A stretch of DNA of 32,580 nt, taken from contig JAGVWM010000014.1 of assembly GCA_018304325.1 (NCBI GenBank), positions 1-32,580 on the forward strand. Direction: 5' to 3'. The stretch comes from Candidatus Pacearchaeota archaeon. GTDB lineage: Archaea > Nanobdellota > Nanobdellia > Pacearchaeales > GW2011-AR1. Of the stretch, positions 1 through 27,216 are shown one piece after another. Numbering within the stretch: the stretch's first letter is position 1; every line of letters starts with the position of its first letter. The notes beneath the pieces were generated by a model, which saw only the letters and a program-made list of their open reading frames with translations, made no database searches and was not told the DNA's origin. The translations under genes and the position numbers were made by a program.

Positions 1-12
1 CTGCTTGGTATA
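1..12 (+). repeat. possible 3' end of a DGR variable repeat (VR)
   Basis: ctgcttggtata versus ctgcttggaata at 510-521: 11/12 identical. The only difference is A (TR-like) to T here, in the same reading frame. Confidence 0.4.
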
Positions 13-171
13 GCGCCAGAGGCGCTTAGTGCGCCTGGCAAAGGTGCTTCAAACATAAAAGCATACACTATGGCAGACTTACAGGCTTTTGATGGTGCAG
101 TAAAAGGATTAGAAGGTACACTACAACCTAACTTATTAAAGCCATTTGTTGATTTAAGAAAGAAACTTTAA
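1..171 (+). CDS. 3' end of a gene cut by the window edge; candidate DGR target protein C-terminus
   Basis: Open frame from base 1 to TAA at 169-171: LLGIAPEALSAPGKGASNIKAYTMADLQAFDGAVKGLEGTLQPNLLKPFVDLRKKL*. The first 4 residues (LLGI) match the TR-like segment in the same frame. Confidence 0.5.
   Translation: MLGIAPEALSAPGKGASNIKAYTMADLQAFDGAVKGLEGTLQPNLLKPFVDLRKKL
12..39. other. GC-rich hairpin/cruciform-capable element just after the putative VR end
   Basis: AGCGCC-AGA-GGCGCT (12-26) and the alternative GCCA(GA)GGCGC-TTAGT-GCGCC-TGGC (15-39), in an otherwise AT-rich region. Confidence 0.5.
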
Positions 172-266
172 TCATATTCTACAATTTCTTATAAATAAAA
201 TTATTACAACAATCTTTTTATACTTTAGTTATTAGAATTTTAAGTCCTGGCAACCGTGGGCAACTA

Positions 267-398
267 CAAAGAATTTCAACAAATTCTTTGACAGGAAGTT
301 TTAACAAACTTCCCTATGAGAAGCTGGGTTATACGCTCATTTACTATGGCAATTTATTGTCATAAAATACAACCACGACACCTAATGTGTGAAGTGGT
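267..398 (+). ncRNA. array of four consecutive hairpins upstream of the TR-like segment; candidate structured part of a DGR RNA
   Basis: CAAAGAATTT-CAAC-AAATTCTTTG (267-290); GGAAGTTT-TAAC-AAACTTCC (294-313); TATGGCAA-TTTA-TTGTCATA (345-364, one GU); ACCAC-g-ACAC-ctaat-GTGT-gaa-GTGGT (372-398). Confidence 0.45.
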
Positions 399-419
399 GG
401 TGATAATTAATAAGTGAAT

Positions 420-525
420 GGGCTATGCTCTGGGGCGTGGTATGTCAACAGGCTCGAGAACAGGTCTAACGCTAATGGCAGGAATGACCTTGACAATGAC
501 AATGGTCGTCTGCTTGGAATAACTC
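420..525 (+). repeat. candidate DGR template repeat (TR)
   Basis: Reads GAWYVNRLENRSNANGRNDLDNDNGRLLGI, with seven AAC/AAT codons plus GAC codons, as in DGR templates. Lies next to a DGR-type RT and is not obviously part of a real protein. Boundaries approximate. Confidence 0.6.
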
Positions 526-580
526 ACTTTGTTGCAGGACTTTTTTTATTTAATTTTGAATTTAAAATCTTTTTCAAAAT

Positions 581-2026
581 TCAATTAAAGATTTCCTTTT
601 TGAAAATCTTTTTATTTTTTTTAAATTTATTTTTTGATTTGATACTTGCTATTACACAAGCAATCTCATCATATGTTATAGAAGAGTCATTTATTCTTTT
701 CTTAACATCCCGTAGTTGCTCTTTTCTACTATATATGTTTCTTATAATCTTATGAATTTTTTCGTGTGGAAGAATTTTCCATACTGAAAGTTGTTTATGT
801 TCTATTAAATTTGCTAAGTGTCCCCAAACGGTTGCCTCTTTGATTCCTTCTTTTATTGCAATGTCTTTTATACTAAGTCCTCGCTTATAATGGAACAAAG
901 TTTTTTGAGCTGAAAATTGCAATTCACTTTCTTTAACCTGCTTAATATAATTAATATAGTTCTTCTTATTGTGAACTAGCAATTTATTGCCATGGGAGAA
1001 AGATGTATTAAAGTTTTTAATGAGATACTTTCTATATTTGTAAGTATTTGCATGTGAGCAATATGCTAACCAACCTTGTAATGATTCTAATGCTTTTTCT
1101 CTGCCTATAAACCCCTCATCAAATAATATCTTTAGATTGTTAAATTTTCTTTCGAAGTTTTTCAAATTGCTTTTTCTTATAAGTTTATGATAAAAGAAAA
1201 CTCTGAAGCCTAAAAAGTTTATTCCACTATTTAATCGTAAAACATTTGACTTGCTTGGGTGTAGTTCTATTTTTAAACTTTCCTTCAGAAAATTATTAAT
1301 TTGATTTTTCCATATTTCTAATTGATTTTTTGATTCATGCAGAATAACAAAGTCATCAACATATCTTATATAATATTTCGATCTTAGTTTGTGTTTTATA
1401 AAAATATCCAGTTCATTGAGGTATAAATTTGCAAAGAACTGGCTTGTTAAATTTCCTAATGGCATTCCCTTAGTTTTATTGTTTATTGCCAGTATCTGTT
1501 CAATAAGCCAGATAACTTTATCATCTTTAATCTTCTTCTTTATAATAGCTATAAGAGTTTGATGATCTATTTCCTCAAAATAATGTTTTATATCTGCCTT
1601 CAAAACATAAGCTTCTCTTATATTATTTTTTGATACTTTTCTTTTAAAGACGTCAAATCTTTCAAATCTTTCTAGTGCTTTTAACCCTCCCTTTCCTATT
1701 TGATTGGCATAAGAATCGTAAATAAAACCCTTTTCAAACATATGCACAATAATATTACACAGAGCATGATGAATAACCCTATCTCTAAAAGCTGATTTAG
1801 ATATTTTTCTTGTTTTTGGATCTCTAAGAACAAACGTTTTTGGCGAGCAAGGTTCATATGTTTGATTAATAAGCTCCTCTTGTAATCTTTGCAAGTTTGT
1901 TTTAAGATTTCGTTGGAATCTTTTAACATATCTTCTTTTAGTCTTTCCTTTCTTTGCATTTTGCCAAGCTATCAATAAATTATTAAAACTACAAATTTCT
2001 CGGTAAATATTATAAAAATTCTTCAT
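581..2026 (-). CDS. DGR-type reverse transcriptase with C-terminal HTH_40-like domain
   Basis: RT motifs VLKADIKHYFEEID, GMPLGNLTSQFFANLYLNELD, YIRYVDDFVIL, NFLGFRVF; C-terminal GWLAYCSHANTYKYRK; then SAQKTLFHYKRGLSIKDIAIKEGIKEATVWGHLANLI, which resembles HTH_40. Confidence 0.85.
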   Translation of the reverse strand: MKNFYNIYREICSFNNLLIAWQNAKKGKTKRRYVKRFQRNLKTNLQRLQEELINQTYEPCSPKTFVLRDPKTRKISKSAFRDRVIHHALCNIIVHMFEKGFIYDSYANQIGKGGLKALERFERFDVFKRKVSKNNIREAYVLKADIKHYFEEIDHQTLIAIIKKKIKDDKVIWLIEQILAINNKTKGMPLGNLTSQFFANLYLNELDIFIKHKLRSKYYIRYVDDFVILHESKNQLEIWKNQINNFLKESLKIELHPSKSNVLRLNSGINFLGFRVFFYHKLIRKSNLKNFERKFNNLKILFDEGFIGREKALESLQGWLAYCSHANTYKYRKYLIKNFNTSFSHGNKLLVHNKKNYINYIKQVKESELQFSAQKTLFHYKRGLSIKDIAIKEGIKEATVWGHLANLIEHKQLSVWKILPHEKIHKIIRNIYSRKEQLRDVKKRINDSSITYDEIACVIASIKSKNKFKKNKKIFKKEIFN

Positions 2027-2319: not shown

Positions 2320-4650
2320 ATGGCAGAAGAATATTCAGCAAAAAGTATTAAAGTTTTAGAAGGTTTAGAAGCAGTAAGGTTAAGGCCTGCAATGTATATA
2401 GGTTCGACCTCTAAAGAAGGACTTCATCATTGTTTTTATGAAGTAATTGATAATTCTATTGATGAAGTGCAGGGTGGTTTTGCTACTTTAATCGAAGTTA
2501 TAATAAATAAAGATGGAAGTTTGACTGTTACAGATAATGGAAGAGGTATTCCTGTTGATAAACACGAATCTGGAAAGTCTGCTTTAGAAATTGTTATGAC
2601 TAAACTTCATGCAGGAGGTAAGTTTGAGAATAAGGCCTATCAAATTTCAGGAGGTTTACATGGAGTCGGGGTTTCATGTGTAAACGCTTTATCTTCTAAA
2701 TTAATAGTTCAGGTTAAAAGAGATGGTAAAATTCATGAACAGACTTATAAAATTGGGGTTCCTCAAGGTCCTGTTAAGGTTGTTGGAACAGTTAAGAATG
2801 GAGAAACAGGAACTTCTGTTACATTTTATCCAGATTCTGATATATTTTCAAGTGTAAATTTTGATTTTTCTATTATAGCTTCAAGAATTAGAGAGTTGGC
2901 TTTTTTAAATCCCTCTGGGAAAATAATTATTAAAGATGAAAGAGATGGTAAAAAAGAAGAATTTCATTATGAAGGTGGTTTAGTTGAATTTGTTAAATGG
3001 ATAAATCGTTCAAAATCACCAATTCATAAGGCTATTTATTTTAAGAAACAGGCTGATTCTACAATTATAGAGGTTGGAGTGCAGTATGTTGATGGTTATC
3101 AAGAAAATATTTTTGGTTTTGTAAATACAATTAATACAGTTGAGGGTGGAACCCATATTTCTGGTTTCAAAACTGCATTAACAAGAGCTATAAATGATTA
3201 TGCTACTAAAAAAGGTCTATTAAAAAATAGTGATAAGTTAACAGGAGATGATGTTCGTGAAGGACTTACTGCTATTGTGAGCATAAGAATTAAAGACCCC
3301 CAATTTGAAGGACAGACTAAAACTAAATTAGGAAATTCAGAAATAAAAGGTTATGTTGATTCTGTTTCTTCAATTGCACTAACAGAATTTTTTGAAGAAA
3401 ATCCAGATATAGCAAACAAAATTGCAAACAAATGTTTATCAGCAGCTAAAGCAAGAGAAGCTGCAAGAAAGGCAAGAGATTTAGTTAGAAGAAAAACAGT
3501 TGTAGGATTTTCAGGATTGCCAGGAAAGCTAGCTGATTGTTCATCTAAAAAATTTGAGCAGACTGAACTTTATATCGTGGAAGGCGATTCGGCTGGAGGA
3601 TGTTTTTCTGGAGATACAAAAATTGCATTAGCTGATGGAAGAAATATTTCATTTAAACAATTAGTTGAAGAAAATAAAATTGGTAAAAAGAATTTTTGTT
3701 ATACTATTAATAATAGTGGAAATATTGGAATTAAAGAAATTAAGCATCCTAGAATTACTAAAAAAGATGCAGAAGTTATCAAAGTAATTTTGGATAATAA
3801 TCAGGAAGTTGTTTGTACTCCTAATCATAAGTTTATGTTAAAAGATGGAAATTATAAAGAAGCAAAAGATTTGACTAAGGAAGATTCATTGATGCCATTG
3901 TATGAAAAAGAAATTAATATAATTCCTAAAAATAATCATAAAATAAAATTAATAGAAAGATTAAATCAAAGAATTGATGTTTATGATATTGAGGTTTCTA
4001 ATACACATAATTTTGCTTTAGCTTCTGGAGTATTTGTTCATAATAGTGCAAAAATGGCTAGAGATAAAGAATTCCAGGCTATTTTACCTTTGAAGGGTAA
4101 ACCATTAAATGTTGAAAAAGCAATGCCTGTTAAAGTTCTTGGAAATGATGAAATTGTTAATTTAATAACAGCTGTTGGTACAGGAATTAAAGAAAATTTT
4201 GATCTTAAAAAATTAAGATACGCTAAGGTTATAATAATGACTGATGCAGATGTTGATGGACAGCATATTAGGACTTTATTGTTAACATTTTTTTATAGAT
4301 ATGTTCCAGAGTTAATTGAAAATGGAAATATCTATGTTGCTATGTCCCCACTTTATAGAATTAGAAATAAGGGAAAGGCCCAGTATGTTTATTCTGATGA
4401 AGAGCTAGAAAAAGAGTCTAAAAAGTTAGGAGGAAATCCAGATGTTCAGAGATTTAAAGGATTAGGAGAGATGAATCCGGATCAGTTATGGGAAACAACT
4501 ATGGATCCTAAAAAAAGAATTCTTAAGAAAATAACTGTTGATGATGCTGTTAGGGCTGATGAAGTATTTGCAATGTTGATGGGAGATGCTGTTGGTCCTA
4601 GGAGAAAATTCATTGAATTAAATGCAAATATTGCTGAGCTGGATATATAG
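2320..4650 (+). CDS. gyrB: DNA gyrase subunit B containing an intein
   Basis: MAEEYSAKSIKVLEGLEAVRLRPAMYIGST...; EGDSAGG; IMTDADVDGQHIRTLLLTFFYR; QRFKGLGEMNPDQLWETTMDP. The ORF-track start at 2212 runs through hairpin repeats; ATG at 2320 is the likely start. Confidence 0.95.
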   Translation: MAEEYSAKSIKVLEGLEAVRLRPAMYIGSTSKEGLHHCFYEVIDNSIDEVQGGFATLIEVIINKDGSLTVTDNGRGIPVDKHESGKSALEIVMTKLHAGGKFENKAYQISGGLHGVGVSCVNALSSKLIVQVKRDGKIHEQTYKIGVPQGPVKVVGTVKNGETGTSVTFYPDSDIFSSVNFDFSIIASRIRELAFLNPSGKIIIKDERDGKKEEFHYEGGLVEFVKWINRSKSPIHKAIYFKKQADSTIIEVGVQYVDGYQENIFGFVNTINTVEGGTHISGFKTALTRAINDYATKKGLLKNSDKLTGDDVREGLTAIVSIRIKDPQFEGQTKTKLGNSEIKGYVDSVSSIALTEFFEENPDIANKIANKCLSAAKAREAARKARDLVRRKTVVGFSGLPGKLADCSSKKFEQTELYIVEGDSAGGCFSGDTKIALADGRNISFKQLVEENKIGKKNFCYTINNSGNIGIKEIKHPRITKKDAEVIKVILDNNQEVVCTPNHKFMLKDGNYKEAKDLTKEDSLMPLYEKEINIIPKNNHKIKLIERLNQRIDVYDIEVSNTHNFALASGVFVHNSAKMARDKEFQAILPLKGKPLNVEKAMPVKVLGNDEIVNLITAVGTGIKENFDLKKLRYAKVIIMTDADVDGQHIRTLLLTFFYRYVPELIENGNIYVAMSPLYRIRNKGKAQYVYSDEELEKESKKLGGNPDVQRFKGLGEMNPDQLWETTMDPKKRILKKITVDDAVRADEVFAMLMGDAVGPRRKFIELNANIAELDI
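3601..4044 (+). mobile_element. GyrB mini-intein (148 aa, no homing endonuclease)
   Basis: EGDSAGG|CFSGDTKIALADGR...CTPNHKFMLKDG...[29 protein letters not shown]: Cys1, TxxH block, terminal HN, Ser+1. Confidence 0.95.
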
Positions 4651-5154: not shown

Positions 5155-8100
5155 AGAAAAAAACAGATGAAAATGAAGAAGATGAACTAGATGAATCTTC
5201 TGAAGAAGATGATAATGATGAGTCTAATGGTAATTCTGAATCTGAAAATGAAAAAGACTTTGATGAAGATATAGAGACTCTTTCTAGAGAAGAAATTAAT
5301 CTTAAGGATTTAGGAGAAGATAGAACTGTTAATACTGAGATATCTGGTGAAATGCAGAAAGCATATATTGATTATGCTATGTCAGTTATTGTATCTAGAG
5401 CTTTACCTGCTGTTGAAGATGGTTTAAAGCCTGTTCATAGAAGAATTCTTTATGCAATGGACCAAATGGGCTTGGATAAAGGTCCAACAAAAAAATCAGC
5501 AAGTATTGTCGGAGATGTTATGGGAAAATATCACCCTCATGGAGATGTTGCTATTTATGATTCTTTAGTTAGAATGGCTCAAGACTTTTCTTTAAGATAT
5601 CCTTTAATTCATGGTCAGGGAAATTTTGGTTGTTTTACTGCTGATACTAAAGTTAAATTAGTAGATGGAAGGGATTTATCATTTGCTGATTTGATTGAAG
5701 AACACCAAAAAGGAAAACGTAATTTTACCCTTTCAGTGAATGAAGATGGAAATGTAATAATTACAGAGATAAAGAACCCAAGATTAACACAAAAAAATGT
5801 AGAAATAATGAAAGTCACTTTGGATAATGGGGAAGAGATAAAATGTACTTTGAATCATAAATTTATGTTAAGAGATGGAAGTTATAAAGAAGCACAATAT
5901 TTACAATCTGGTAATTCTTTGATGCCTGTTTACTTTAAATTATCTACTAAAGATGATGGCCAGAAAGTTATTGGTTATAGTATGGTTTTCCAGCCTAAAT
6001 CAAACGAATGGAGTTTCTTCCATTACCTTTCTGATAAATGGAATTTAGAAAATGGAATATATTCTGTTTCTGCTGGGAGAGTAAGACATCATATAGACTT
6101 TAATAAATTAAATAATAATCCAGATAATATAAGAAGAATGCATTGGAAAGATCATTGGTTATTACATTCTTCTTTAACTTCATTTAAACATAAAAATGAC
6201 CAAGAATATGTAAAAAAATTAGAAGAAGGAAGAAAAGTATTTTGGGAGAATAATCAAAATAGAATTAATTATTCAACTAGAATGCGTAGTAGAAATATTG
6301 AAAATTGGAAAGATCAAACTTATAGGGCTGAAATGAGTTTAACTTTAAGTGAAGTTAATAAAAAATATTTGGCTGAACATCCTGAAAGAATCGAAGAAAT
6401 CCGTAGAACTGCATCATTGACTATGAAAAAAATGTGGCTTAGTCCAGATTATAAAAACTTATTTAATGAGAAAATTACTGCATCTAACAAGAGAAGAGAA
6501 ACTAATTTAACAGGAAAAAAGAATTTTTTAAATATATGTGATTATCTGAAAAAAAATAATTTATTTATAAACAAGGAAAATTTTGAAAAAGCAAGAATTG
6601 AAGTATTTGGTGGAAAAAACTTTACAAGCTGGGAACATGGTTTAACTAAATATTATAATAAAAATAATAATTTACTTCTGGCTGAGCTGAATGGTAATCA
6701 TAAAGTTGTTAAGACTGAATTTTTAAGAGAATTTCAGGATGTTTATGATTTAACTATAGATAAAACACATAATTTTTCTTTATCTTCTGGAGTATTTGTT
6801 CATAATTCAATGGATGGTGATAGGGCTGCTGCTCAGAGATATACAGAAGCTAAATTAGATAAAATATCTTTGGAATTGTTGCAAGATTTAGATAAAGAAA
6901 CAGTTCCATTTGTAAATACTTATGATAATTCTAGAAAAGAACCAATAGTTCTTCCTGGAAAAGTTCCTAACTTGCTTATTAATGGTTCTTCAGGAATTGC
7001 GGTTGGAATGGCAACAAATATTCCCCCCCATAACCTAGTAGAAGTTTGTGATGCTATAACTGTTTTGATTGATAAACCAAACACTGAAATTAAAGATTTG
7101 CTTGAGATAATTAAAGGTCCTGATTTTCCAACTGGAGGAGTAATGGTTGCTGAAAATTTATTGGAAATGTATTCTACTGGAAAAGGGGCAGTGACATTAA
7201 GGGGAAATGTTAAAACAGAGTCTGCAAAAAATAAAGAAGTAGTTGTTATTAATGAAATTCCTTATCAGGTTAATAAATCTGAATTAGTAAAACAAATTGC
7301 AGAGCTTGCAAGAGATAAAAAATTAACAGATGTAAGTGATATTAGAGATGAGTCTGCTAAAGGTAAAGTAAGAATTGTGATAGAACTAAGAAAAGGTGTT
7401 GATTCTAAATTTACTATAAACAGACTTTACAAAAGTACTAATTTGCAGACTAGATTTAATTCTACTTTTGTTGCTTTAGATAATGGTATTCCAAAAACAA
7501 TGAATTTAAAACATATTTTAGAAGCTTACATTTTACATAGAAGAAAGATGGTCAGAAAAAGATCAGAATTTGATTTTAGGAAGGCTGAAGCAAGATTACA
7601 CATTGTTGAAGGATTATTAATTGCCCAAAAACAGATTGATAAAATTATTGAATCAATTAAAAAAAGTAAAGGTACTCAAGAAGCTTCTGAGAATTTACAG
7701 CATAAATTTTCTTTGTCTAAGAAACAGGCTGAAGCAATTCTTGAAATAACTCTGAAACAATTAACAGCTTTGGAAAGAGAAAAACTTGAGAATGAGGAAA
7801 AGTTTTTGAAACAACTAATAAAAGAATTAAAGTTAATTCTTGATGATGAAAAAGAAATACTTAAGATAATTAAAAAAGAATTAAATGAGTTAAAGAAAAA
7901 TTATGGGGATGAGAGAAGAACTAGAGTTATTAAGGTTATTAAAGAAATTGAAGAAAAAGATCTAGTTTTAAAACAAGATGTTGTAATTACAATAACTGAA
8001 AAAGGATACATAAAAAGAATGCCTTTCAAATCTTATAATGAACAAAAACGTGGTGGTAAAGGTGTTATTGGAACTGATCTTTCAACAGATGATTTTGTTA

Positions 8101-26611: not shown

Positions 26612-26929
26612 ATTATTCACTAAAACGTAAAGTTTAAATATCATTAATTTCTGATGAAAATATGAAACTAACAAAAAGAATTCAAAATTCTAATGGGGCG
26701 AAAGGCACATCAAGTGCTGGTTGTTTTCACTTTTGCTAGTTATAACTTTAATTCTTTTTTACCTGTAAATAATTCTTTTAACGATTTTGGAATAATTAAT
26801 AAACCTAATTTTTTTAGTAATCTAAATATTGACAATTTAAAGGAAATTTTAAAACCAAAAGAAGCAAAGCTTCTTTGGTCCAGAGAACAAGGATGTTCTC
26901 AAGGAGAAAACCTTTGGTTGTCTTTTAAT

Positions 26930-27001
26930 GGCGGTTGTAGTTTAACGGTAGAACGTGCGGTTGTGGTCCGTAAAACGAGGGTTCGACTCCCTCTTTCCGC
27001 T
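26930..27001 (+). tRNA. tRNA-His (anticodon GTG), atypical acceptor stem
   Basis: Body 26931-27000: GCGGTTG TA GTTTAACGGTAGAAC G TGCGG-TTGTGGT-CCGTA AAACG GAGGG? (T arm read as GAGGG-TTCGACT-CCCTC) TTTCCGC. Cloverleaf D, anticodon and T arms form; encoded G at -1 (26930). Confidence 0.85.
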
Positions 27002-27003
27002 TT

Positions 27004-27113
27004 AAACCTTTTGCGAAAAAGTTACCAAATGAACCTTTGGAAAAGGTTCCCAAATAAACCTTTGAGAAAGGTTTCCAAAACGAACAATAAACCTTTGGAA
27101 AAAGGTTTCCAAA
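27004..27113. repeat. cluster of hairpin repeats downstream of tRNA-His
   Basis: GAACCTTT-GGA-AAAGGTTC (27031-27049), AAACCTTT-GAG-AAAGGTTT (27056-27074), AAACCTTT-GGAA-AAAGGTTT (27089-27108), plus an imperfect copy at 27004. Each is followed by CCAAA-like sequence. Confidence 0.75.
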
Positions 27114-27216
27114 ACATCAATTTTGAGGATAAAATCACTATAAGTGATGATTTAGTTCATCTATCTTAATTCTGAAAAACTTATTTTAACATTGCCTGAA
27201 AGGAGGTTTTCTTAAA

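Follow-up and report, generated by a model that had tools for sequence, protein, structure and literature searches.

A diversity-generating retroelement in the chromosome of a Pacearchaeota-type archaeon, with a structured template RNA, probable service in trans and a putatively phase-variable reverse transcriptase in its relatives

In the portions of the published descriptions on which we draw, the diversity-generating retroelements (DGRs) of the DUSEL4 Nanoarchaeota have the IMH* TGGAAT (PMC4372165), and these DGRs and the AvpA system (PMC5006420) show a trinucleotide-loop hairpin inside the target gene, an internal VR, an AvpA-like C-type-lectin (CLec) target and several DGRs per genome. 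The locus analysed here resembles them in all these traits; as a DGR it belongs to an established type, close to the DUSEL4 nanoarchaeal elements, and an earlier note on this DNA, made from its letters, had rightly held that the class is not new. Compared with what those portions say of DUSEL4, our locus differs in a reverse transcriptase (RT) with a C-terminal HTH_40 domain, in a template repeat (TR) on the strand opposite the RT and in that no Avd-like ORF was seen; the RT-16/P1-P3 RNA and the repeat tracts described below find no counterpart in them. DGRs whose TR, VR and target share one strand and whose RT lies on the opposite one have been described as inverted (group 4) in DiGReF (PMC3521204) and belong to Shewanella, Vibrio and Photobacterium; they have the same strand arrangement as our locus, and here this arrangement is confined to one clade of HTH-fused RTs. 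The DGR of the Bordetella phage BPP-1 shares with ours the RT clade, the adenine mutagenesis pattern and the hairpin that follows the VR, but our locus has no avd, an HTH fusion, a different RNA architecture and a cellular host. Avd is needed in BPP-1. What makes the present element a new variant is the RNA frame around its TR, the cassettes devoid of an RT and, above all, the apparent phase variability of the RT in relatives.

The window, that is the whole stretch of 32,580 nucleotides analysed, comprises contig C13 in full; the MAG to which it belongs has 663 kb in 39 contigs and is 75% complete. Gyrase subunits and tRNA synthetases are neighbours of the DGR, which therefore lies in an ordinary chromosome. 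Both gyrase subunits carry inteins, a small one in GyrB (residues 472-611, window 3625-4044); that of GyrA (residues 176-552, window 5676-6806) is larger and has an HNH-like sequence. A dispersed hairpin-rich repeat (AACCTTTTAACGAAAAGGTTTCC...), common to several contigs, lies by gene starts at about 2220-2305 and 27080-27140 of the window and at about 9170-9245 of L013. A tRNA gene (26931-27001) underlies the ORF at 26693-27169, which is probably spurious.

The Asn-codon-rich segment that the earlier note compared with DGR templates is a real TR (433-521, + strand), ending in the IMH* GGAATA (516-521, +) and pairing with a VR on contig C23. Ungapped alignment of positions 433-509 with C23:9905-9981, the best match of the TR elsewhere in its own genome, gave 12 mismatches in 77 nucleotides, 11 of which fell at TR adenines (hypergeometric P = 1e-6, with 22 A in 77 nt). 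None of the mismatches falls where the C23 copy has A, meaning that information has passed from TR to VR. No TR codon can be converted into a stop by substitution of an A. A 236-aa ORF has the C23 copy as its 3' end; next come GGTATA and the hairpin GCGCC-AGA-GGCGC. An IMH/IMH* pair is thus present (compare GGTATA in the VRs with GGAATA in the TR).

A second VR is found at the very beginning of the window. Positions 1-12 (+), CTGCTTGGTATA, correspond to the IMH-side 3' end of a cis VR and equal TR positions 510-521 except for A518T (CTGCTTGG(T/A)ATA), in agreement with the earlier observation that the gene ending at 171 shares the 3' end of the TR. Downstream of this VR, and within the target ORF, lies the DNA hairpin AGCGCC-AGA-GGCGCT (12-26, +). 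The sequence GCGCC-AGA-GGCGC occurs in the genome only at window 13-25 and, after the C23 VR, at C23 9994-10006, so that the contig starts inside a second VR. Hairpins of this type were found after 76 of 114 VRs (compare 2 of 115 random windows). The ORF at 1-171 (+) encodes the C-terminal 56 aa of an AvpA-like DGR target whose start is lost at the contig edge; its product is 75% identical to the target C-terminus of L184/L047, from the same genus, with which it has the tail GIAPEAL...LRKKL in common. The ORF thus represents the remnant of a second target, located in cis and cut within its VR by the contig edge, and an assembly break at the VR is what hypervariable repeats would cause. The VR-like repeats for which the earlier note proposed to search the genome were thus found, on C23 and in truncated form at base 1.

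The fold of the targets was approached through the predicted model of a homologous target (pLDDT 72.5), as the window copy is truncated. In a Foldseek search this model had a single significant match, 5ioo_A (E 1.4e-6), which is AvpA, a C-type-lectin DGR target of Nanoarchaeota (PMC5006420). The predicted fold thus matches AvpA and is of the diversity-tolerant CLec type. The sequence GRF(V/L)G at the IMH of the targets also resembles RFxGV of AvpA. A Pfam search of the targets gave no match, and a profile search of PDB sequences with them returned chance matches only.

The region between target and TR, which the earlier note had described as structured, contains the RNA domain RT-16 of Rfam (RF03019; 313-431, +; 75.3 bits for a gathering threshold of 50). 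RT-16 was present in 23 relatives' loci, immediately 5' of the TR wherever the TR was located, and the template RNA of the window folded better than shuffled sequences (z -5.5). Three helices, all on the + strand, frame the TR. P1 pairs AAGTCCTGGCAAC (242-254) with GTTGCAGGACTT (531-542; P = 4e-18), P2 pairs GAAGCTGGGTTAT (320-332) with ATAACTCACTTTG (519-531; P = 3e-17) and P3 pairs ACGCTCATTTAC (333-344) with AAGTGAATGGGC (412-423, just 5' of the TR; P = 8e-43). The P values compare own-partner with swapped-partner pairing energies, the TR borders being taken from BLAST: pairing with a strand's own partner is much stronger than pairing with the corresponding strand of another locus, and the closing helices are supported by covariation among about 100 relatives. 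P1 encloses the entire RNA, P2 starts at the 3' end of the TR and P3 finishes just before its 5' end, meaning that the TR would form a loop between two helices. An archaeal TATA-like box, CTTTTTATAC (214-223, +), lies about 25 nt before P1 and would place the transcription start near 242; the same element is found at the same place in several relatives. Since an oligo-T stretch (541-547, +), the probable end of the template RNA, follows P1, the RNA is probably a transcript of its own. The Rfam model is limited to the domain on the P3 side, which at our locus makes up the 5' domain of the DGR template RNA; the window RNA adds P1 and P2 around the TR. The link between RT-16 and DGRs may already stand in the RT-16 source paper (NAR 2017); our literature search on RT-16, which did not extend to the 2017 RNA survey and the 2017 and 2018 DGR surveys, found nothing.

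The RT is encoded on the opposite strand by an ORF of 481 aa (581-2026, -), identified as a DGR RT by Pfam (RVT_1, 3e-20, and C-terminal HTH_40, 2.6e-14), by phrog_1423 (1e-116) and by phylogeny. The two hallmarks read in the earlier note, GNLTSQ and RYVDDF, are both in this ORF, the former within motif 4, GMPLGNLTSQ (residues 187-196; 1439-1468, -), which is (nearly) invariant in the alignment, and the latter as the catalytic motif. The HTH_40 domain spans residues 372-459 (650-913, -). The best match of the RT in the PDB was 8ub7, which we take to be the Bordetella phage DGR RT (residues 4-329, E 1.4e-42; compare 7.8e-17 for the best group II RT). In the IQ-TREE phylogeny, DPANN RTs and eight DGR references grouped together against group II RTs (100/100), the position expected if the locus was, as the earlier note thought probable, a DGR; the HTH-fused RTs formed a single clade (99/92). 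As had been remarked before, we saw no ORF resembling Avd next to the RT in the window; HTH_40 may stand in for Avd. Where the RT has no HTH, all 112 records show the TR upstream on the RT strand. Among HTH RTs, 13 records have it downstream on the other strand, 8 upstream on the RT strand and 1 upstream on the other strand; these records include contigs under two names, and the distinct loci besides the window number 9, 7 and 1, respectively. The inverted arrangement is therefore confined to the HTH-RT clade, with the window and 9 of the 17 distinct loci in which the TR was located. The layout reported earlier, with target, RNA and TR on the + strand and RT on the - strand, is correct; a TR opposite the RT is the known inverted type (PMC3521204).

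A search of the same genome with RT-16 gave four copies, in the window (C13), on C35, at C2:19621 and at C34:18144. C35 holds a second DGR, whose RT is frameshifted and without GMPLG. The other two loci, L351 (C2:19621-19827) and L352 (C34:18144-18375), are each composed of RT-16, TR and VR with no RT nearby, and 15 of 17 and 10 of 12 TR/VR mismatches, respectively, fall at A. An RT fragment is present on C2, and the window RT was the only intact one found in this 75% complete MAG. All RT-less RT-16 loci sampled (10/10, two from this genome and eight from other genomes) had a TR/VR pair. Because there are two cassettes without an RT, one with a broken RT and one intact RT, the window RT probably serves several RT-16-tagged template RNAs in trans; another intact RT may be missing from an assembly at this level of completeness in 39 contigs.

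We then looked at the RT in relatives. An RT of the window's kind was present in 78 of 206 genomes of the order, and in 57 of 107 RT loci the loop just before GMPLGN contained a repeat tract, either G (5-13), GA (up to 26 nt) or C (11). According to the RT alignment, the same loop in the window is plain, 24 nt long and in frame (1469-1492, -). Modulo 3, the tract-bearing RTs were distributed 19/17/21, i.e. about one third in frame and two thirds out, whereas 49 of 50 RTs without a tract were in frame, as were all 54 RTs of viral contigs (a control from an IMG/VR scan, mostly of distant DGRs). Both halves were without stops in 33 of 36 out-of-frame RTs (compare 0.10 stops per codon in the other frames), and their divergence by codon position was the same as in intact RTs. 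At out-of-frame loci, 60% of A sites and 4.5% of non-A sites had changed between TR and VR (compare 53% and 4.9% at loci with tractless RTs); these loci have thus lately been active, as their VRs are rewritten at A much as elsewhere. A pseudogene reading of the out-of-frame RTs was ruled out by the intact halves and the fresh VRs, and the fact that certain tract loops (L149) scarcely exceed plain ones in length argues against an archaeal intron.

Long tracts (at least 8 G/C or at least 12 GA) were found 43 times in the loop, 4 times elsewhere in or by RTs and 3 times in the remainder of the 618 kb. Both kinds of tract, G and GA, are dispersed on the tree (for GA, 18 rows and 18 changes), which points to repeated gain at one site. 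The window RT is nested among tract bearers, L047 (G9, in frame) and L084 (G10, out of frame), and since it has no tract, phase variation would apply to the relatives only. Their RTs show what characterizes repeat-based phase-variable genes, a tract within the ORF, all three frames and an otherwise intact sequence, so that phase variation of the RT gene via poly-G or (GA)n is strongly supported by comparison. Like the contingency loci of Neisseria and Campylobacter, they have a poly-G or dinucleotide tract in the ORF and out-of-frame alleles that are otherwise intact; unlike in those loci, the host is archaeal and the gene that would be switched is a targeted mutator. Near-identical strain pairs with differing tract lengths were sought among the relatives and none was found, and a literature search, with several key DGR/RNA papers outside its scope, returned no report of phase variation in a DGR RT. 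A tract-bearing RT modelled with AlphaFold had pLDDT <50 at residues 174-197 and was poor around the active site, for which reason it gives only weak support to a flexible loop.

Other tracts were noted in passing. L109, L126, L274 and L275 have a second poly-G site in the RT, at about residue 240, after YVDDF, and a (CT)19 tract adjoins the DGR RT of a viral contig (L337 2412). In relatives such as L067, L069, L068 and L070, short motifs recur after the loop tract (GCGAACG, GCGAAGC; GACGCGAG), a pattern that might arise if the tracts were seeded by some small mobile or templated sequence. Across the family's genomes there were 30 loci with G tracts of at least 10, of which 11 were in DGR RTs and the remainder without evident family. 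L266, L267, L276, L291 and L292 carry other long G tracts, some of them beside or inside long open frames, and could possibly be further phase-variable genes.

The window RT also scored with other RT families, with 143.5 bits for the NCBIfam model group_II_RT_mat (cut-off 300), and weaker retron/DRT scores, among them 63.5 bits for a retron RT family (cut-off 235). That the enzyme belongs to a group II intron, a retron or an Abi/DRT system and lies beside the repeat by coincidence is nevertheless scarcely credible: all these scores are under the curated cut-offs, tree and PDB place the enzyme with DGR RTs, and about 130 loci have an A-biased TR/VR pair beside the same kind of RT. It could also be a relic, with a TR/VR pair left by earlier activity and an RT that has ceased to diversify genes, and the broken RT on C35 and the RT fragment on C2 would fit such decay. 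We consider this improbable because the window RT retains its full length and every catalytic motif and is 76-77% identical to two relatives, and because a single TR/VR mismatch in 77 nt is not at A.

For the tracts, poly-G can make RNA polymerase slip and both RT halves are kept intact, as would be expected of a split, two-subunit RT or of programmed or transcriptional slippage rather than of a switch. The frames stand against a two-gene RT or programmed frameshift, being uniform with no fixed shift and one third in frame, and the tree shows frequent changes of tract type; we hold this explanation to be unlikely. Assembly or sequencing artefacts have to be considered too, as the contigs come from MAGs and two-colour Illumina chemistry produces poly-G. 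Artefacts would hardly single out the same loop of the same gene family in many genomes, and as (GA)n too, within contigs with coherent flanks from several independent public projects, when only three such tracts lie outside RTs in 618 kb, and we regard them as very improbable.

Taken together, these data fit an account that we consider very probable as a whole, including service in trans and phase variation in relatives. In this DGR, carried on the chromosome of a DPANN archaeon of Pacearchaeota type, a separate RNA (about 242-547, +) would hold the TR looped out between P3 and P2, with P1 closing the structure, and cDNA synthesis may be primed near the IMH* in P2. The HTH-fused RT, made from the opposite strand, would recognise the RT-16/P1-P3 tag and, judging by the TR/VR differences, copy the TR with errors at adenines; the cDNA would then replace VRs upstream of a GC-rich hairpin with an RGA loop in AvpA-like C-type-lectin genes. 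Two VR-bearing targets were seen, the truncated cis copy at base 1 and that of contig C23, and the single RT probably extends its service to the other template RNAs. In relatives, slippage of the tract would switch the RT on and off; the window copy, as it has no tract, would be read constitutively. It is likely that Pacearchaeota possess a distributed network of RNA-tagged DGRs operating in trans, with the RT as a stochastic contingency locus in most lineages.

The RNA architecture offers an idea of how DGR template RNAs may be marked and how cassettes without an RT can be served in trans, and these cassettes bear on the detection of DGRs that have no adjacent RT. To our knowledge, repeat-based phase variation is rare in archaea, and the RT tracts of the relatives would add a case. 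The cellular control of DGR mutagenesis is, as far as we know, poorly understood; a slippage tract in the RT gene, regained often at one loop, would be a direct answer on how DGRs are regulated, namely, if true, by bet-hedging at the level of the mutator itself.
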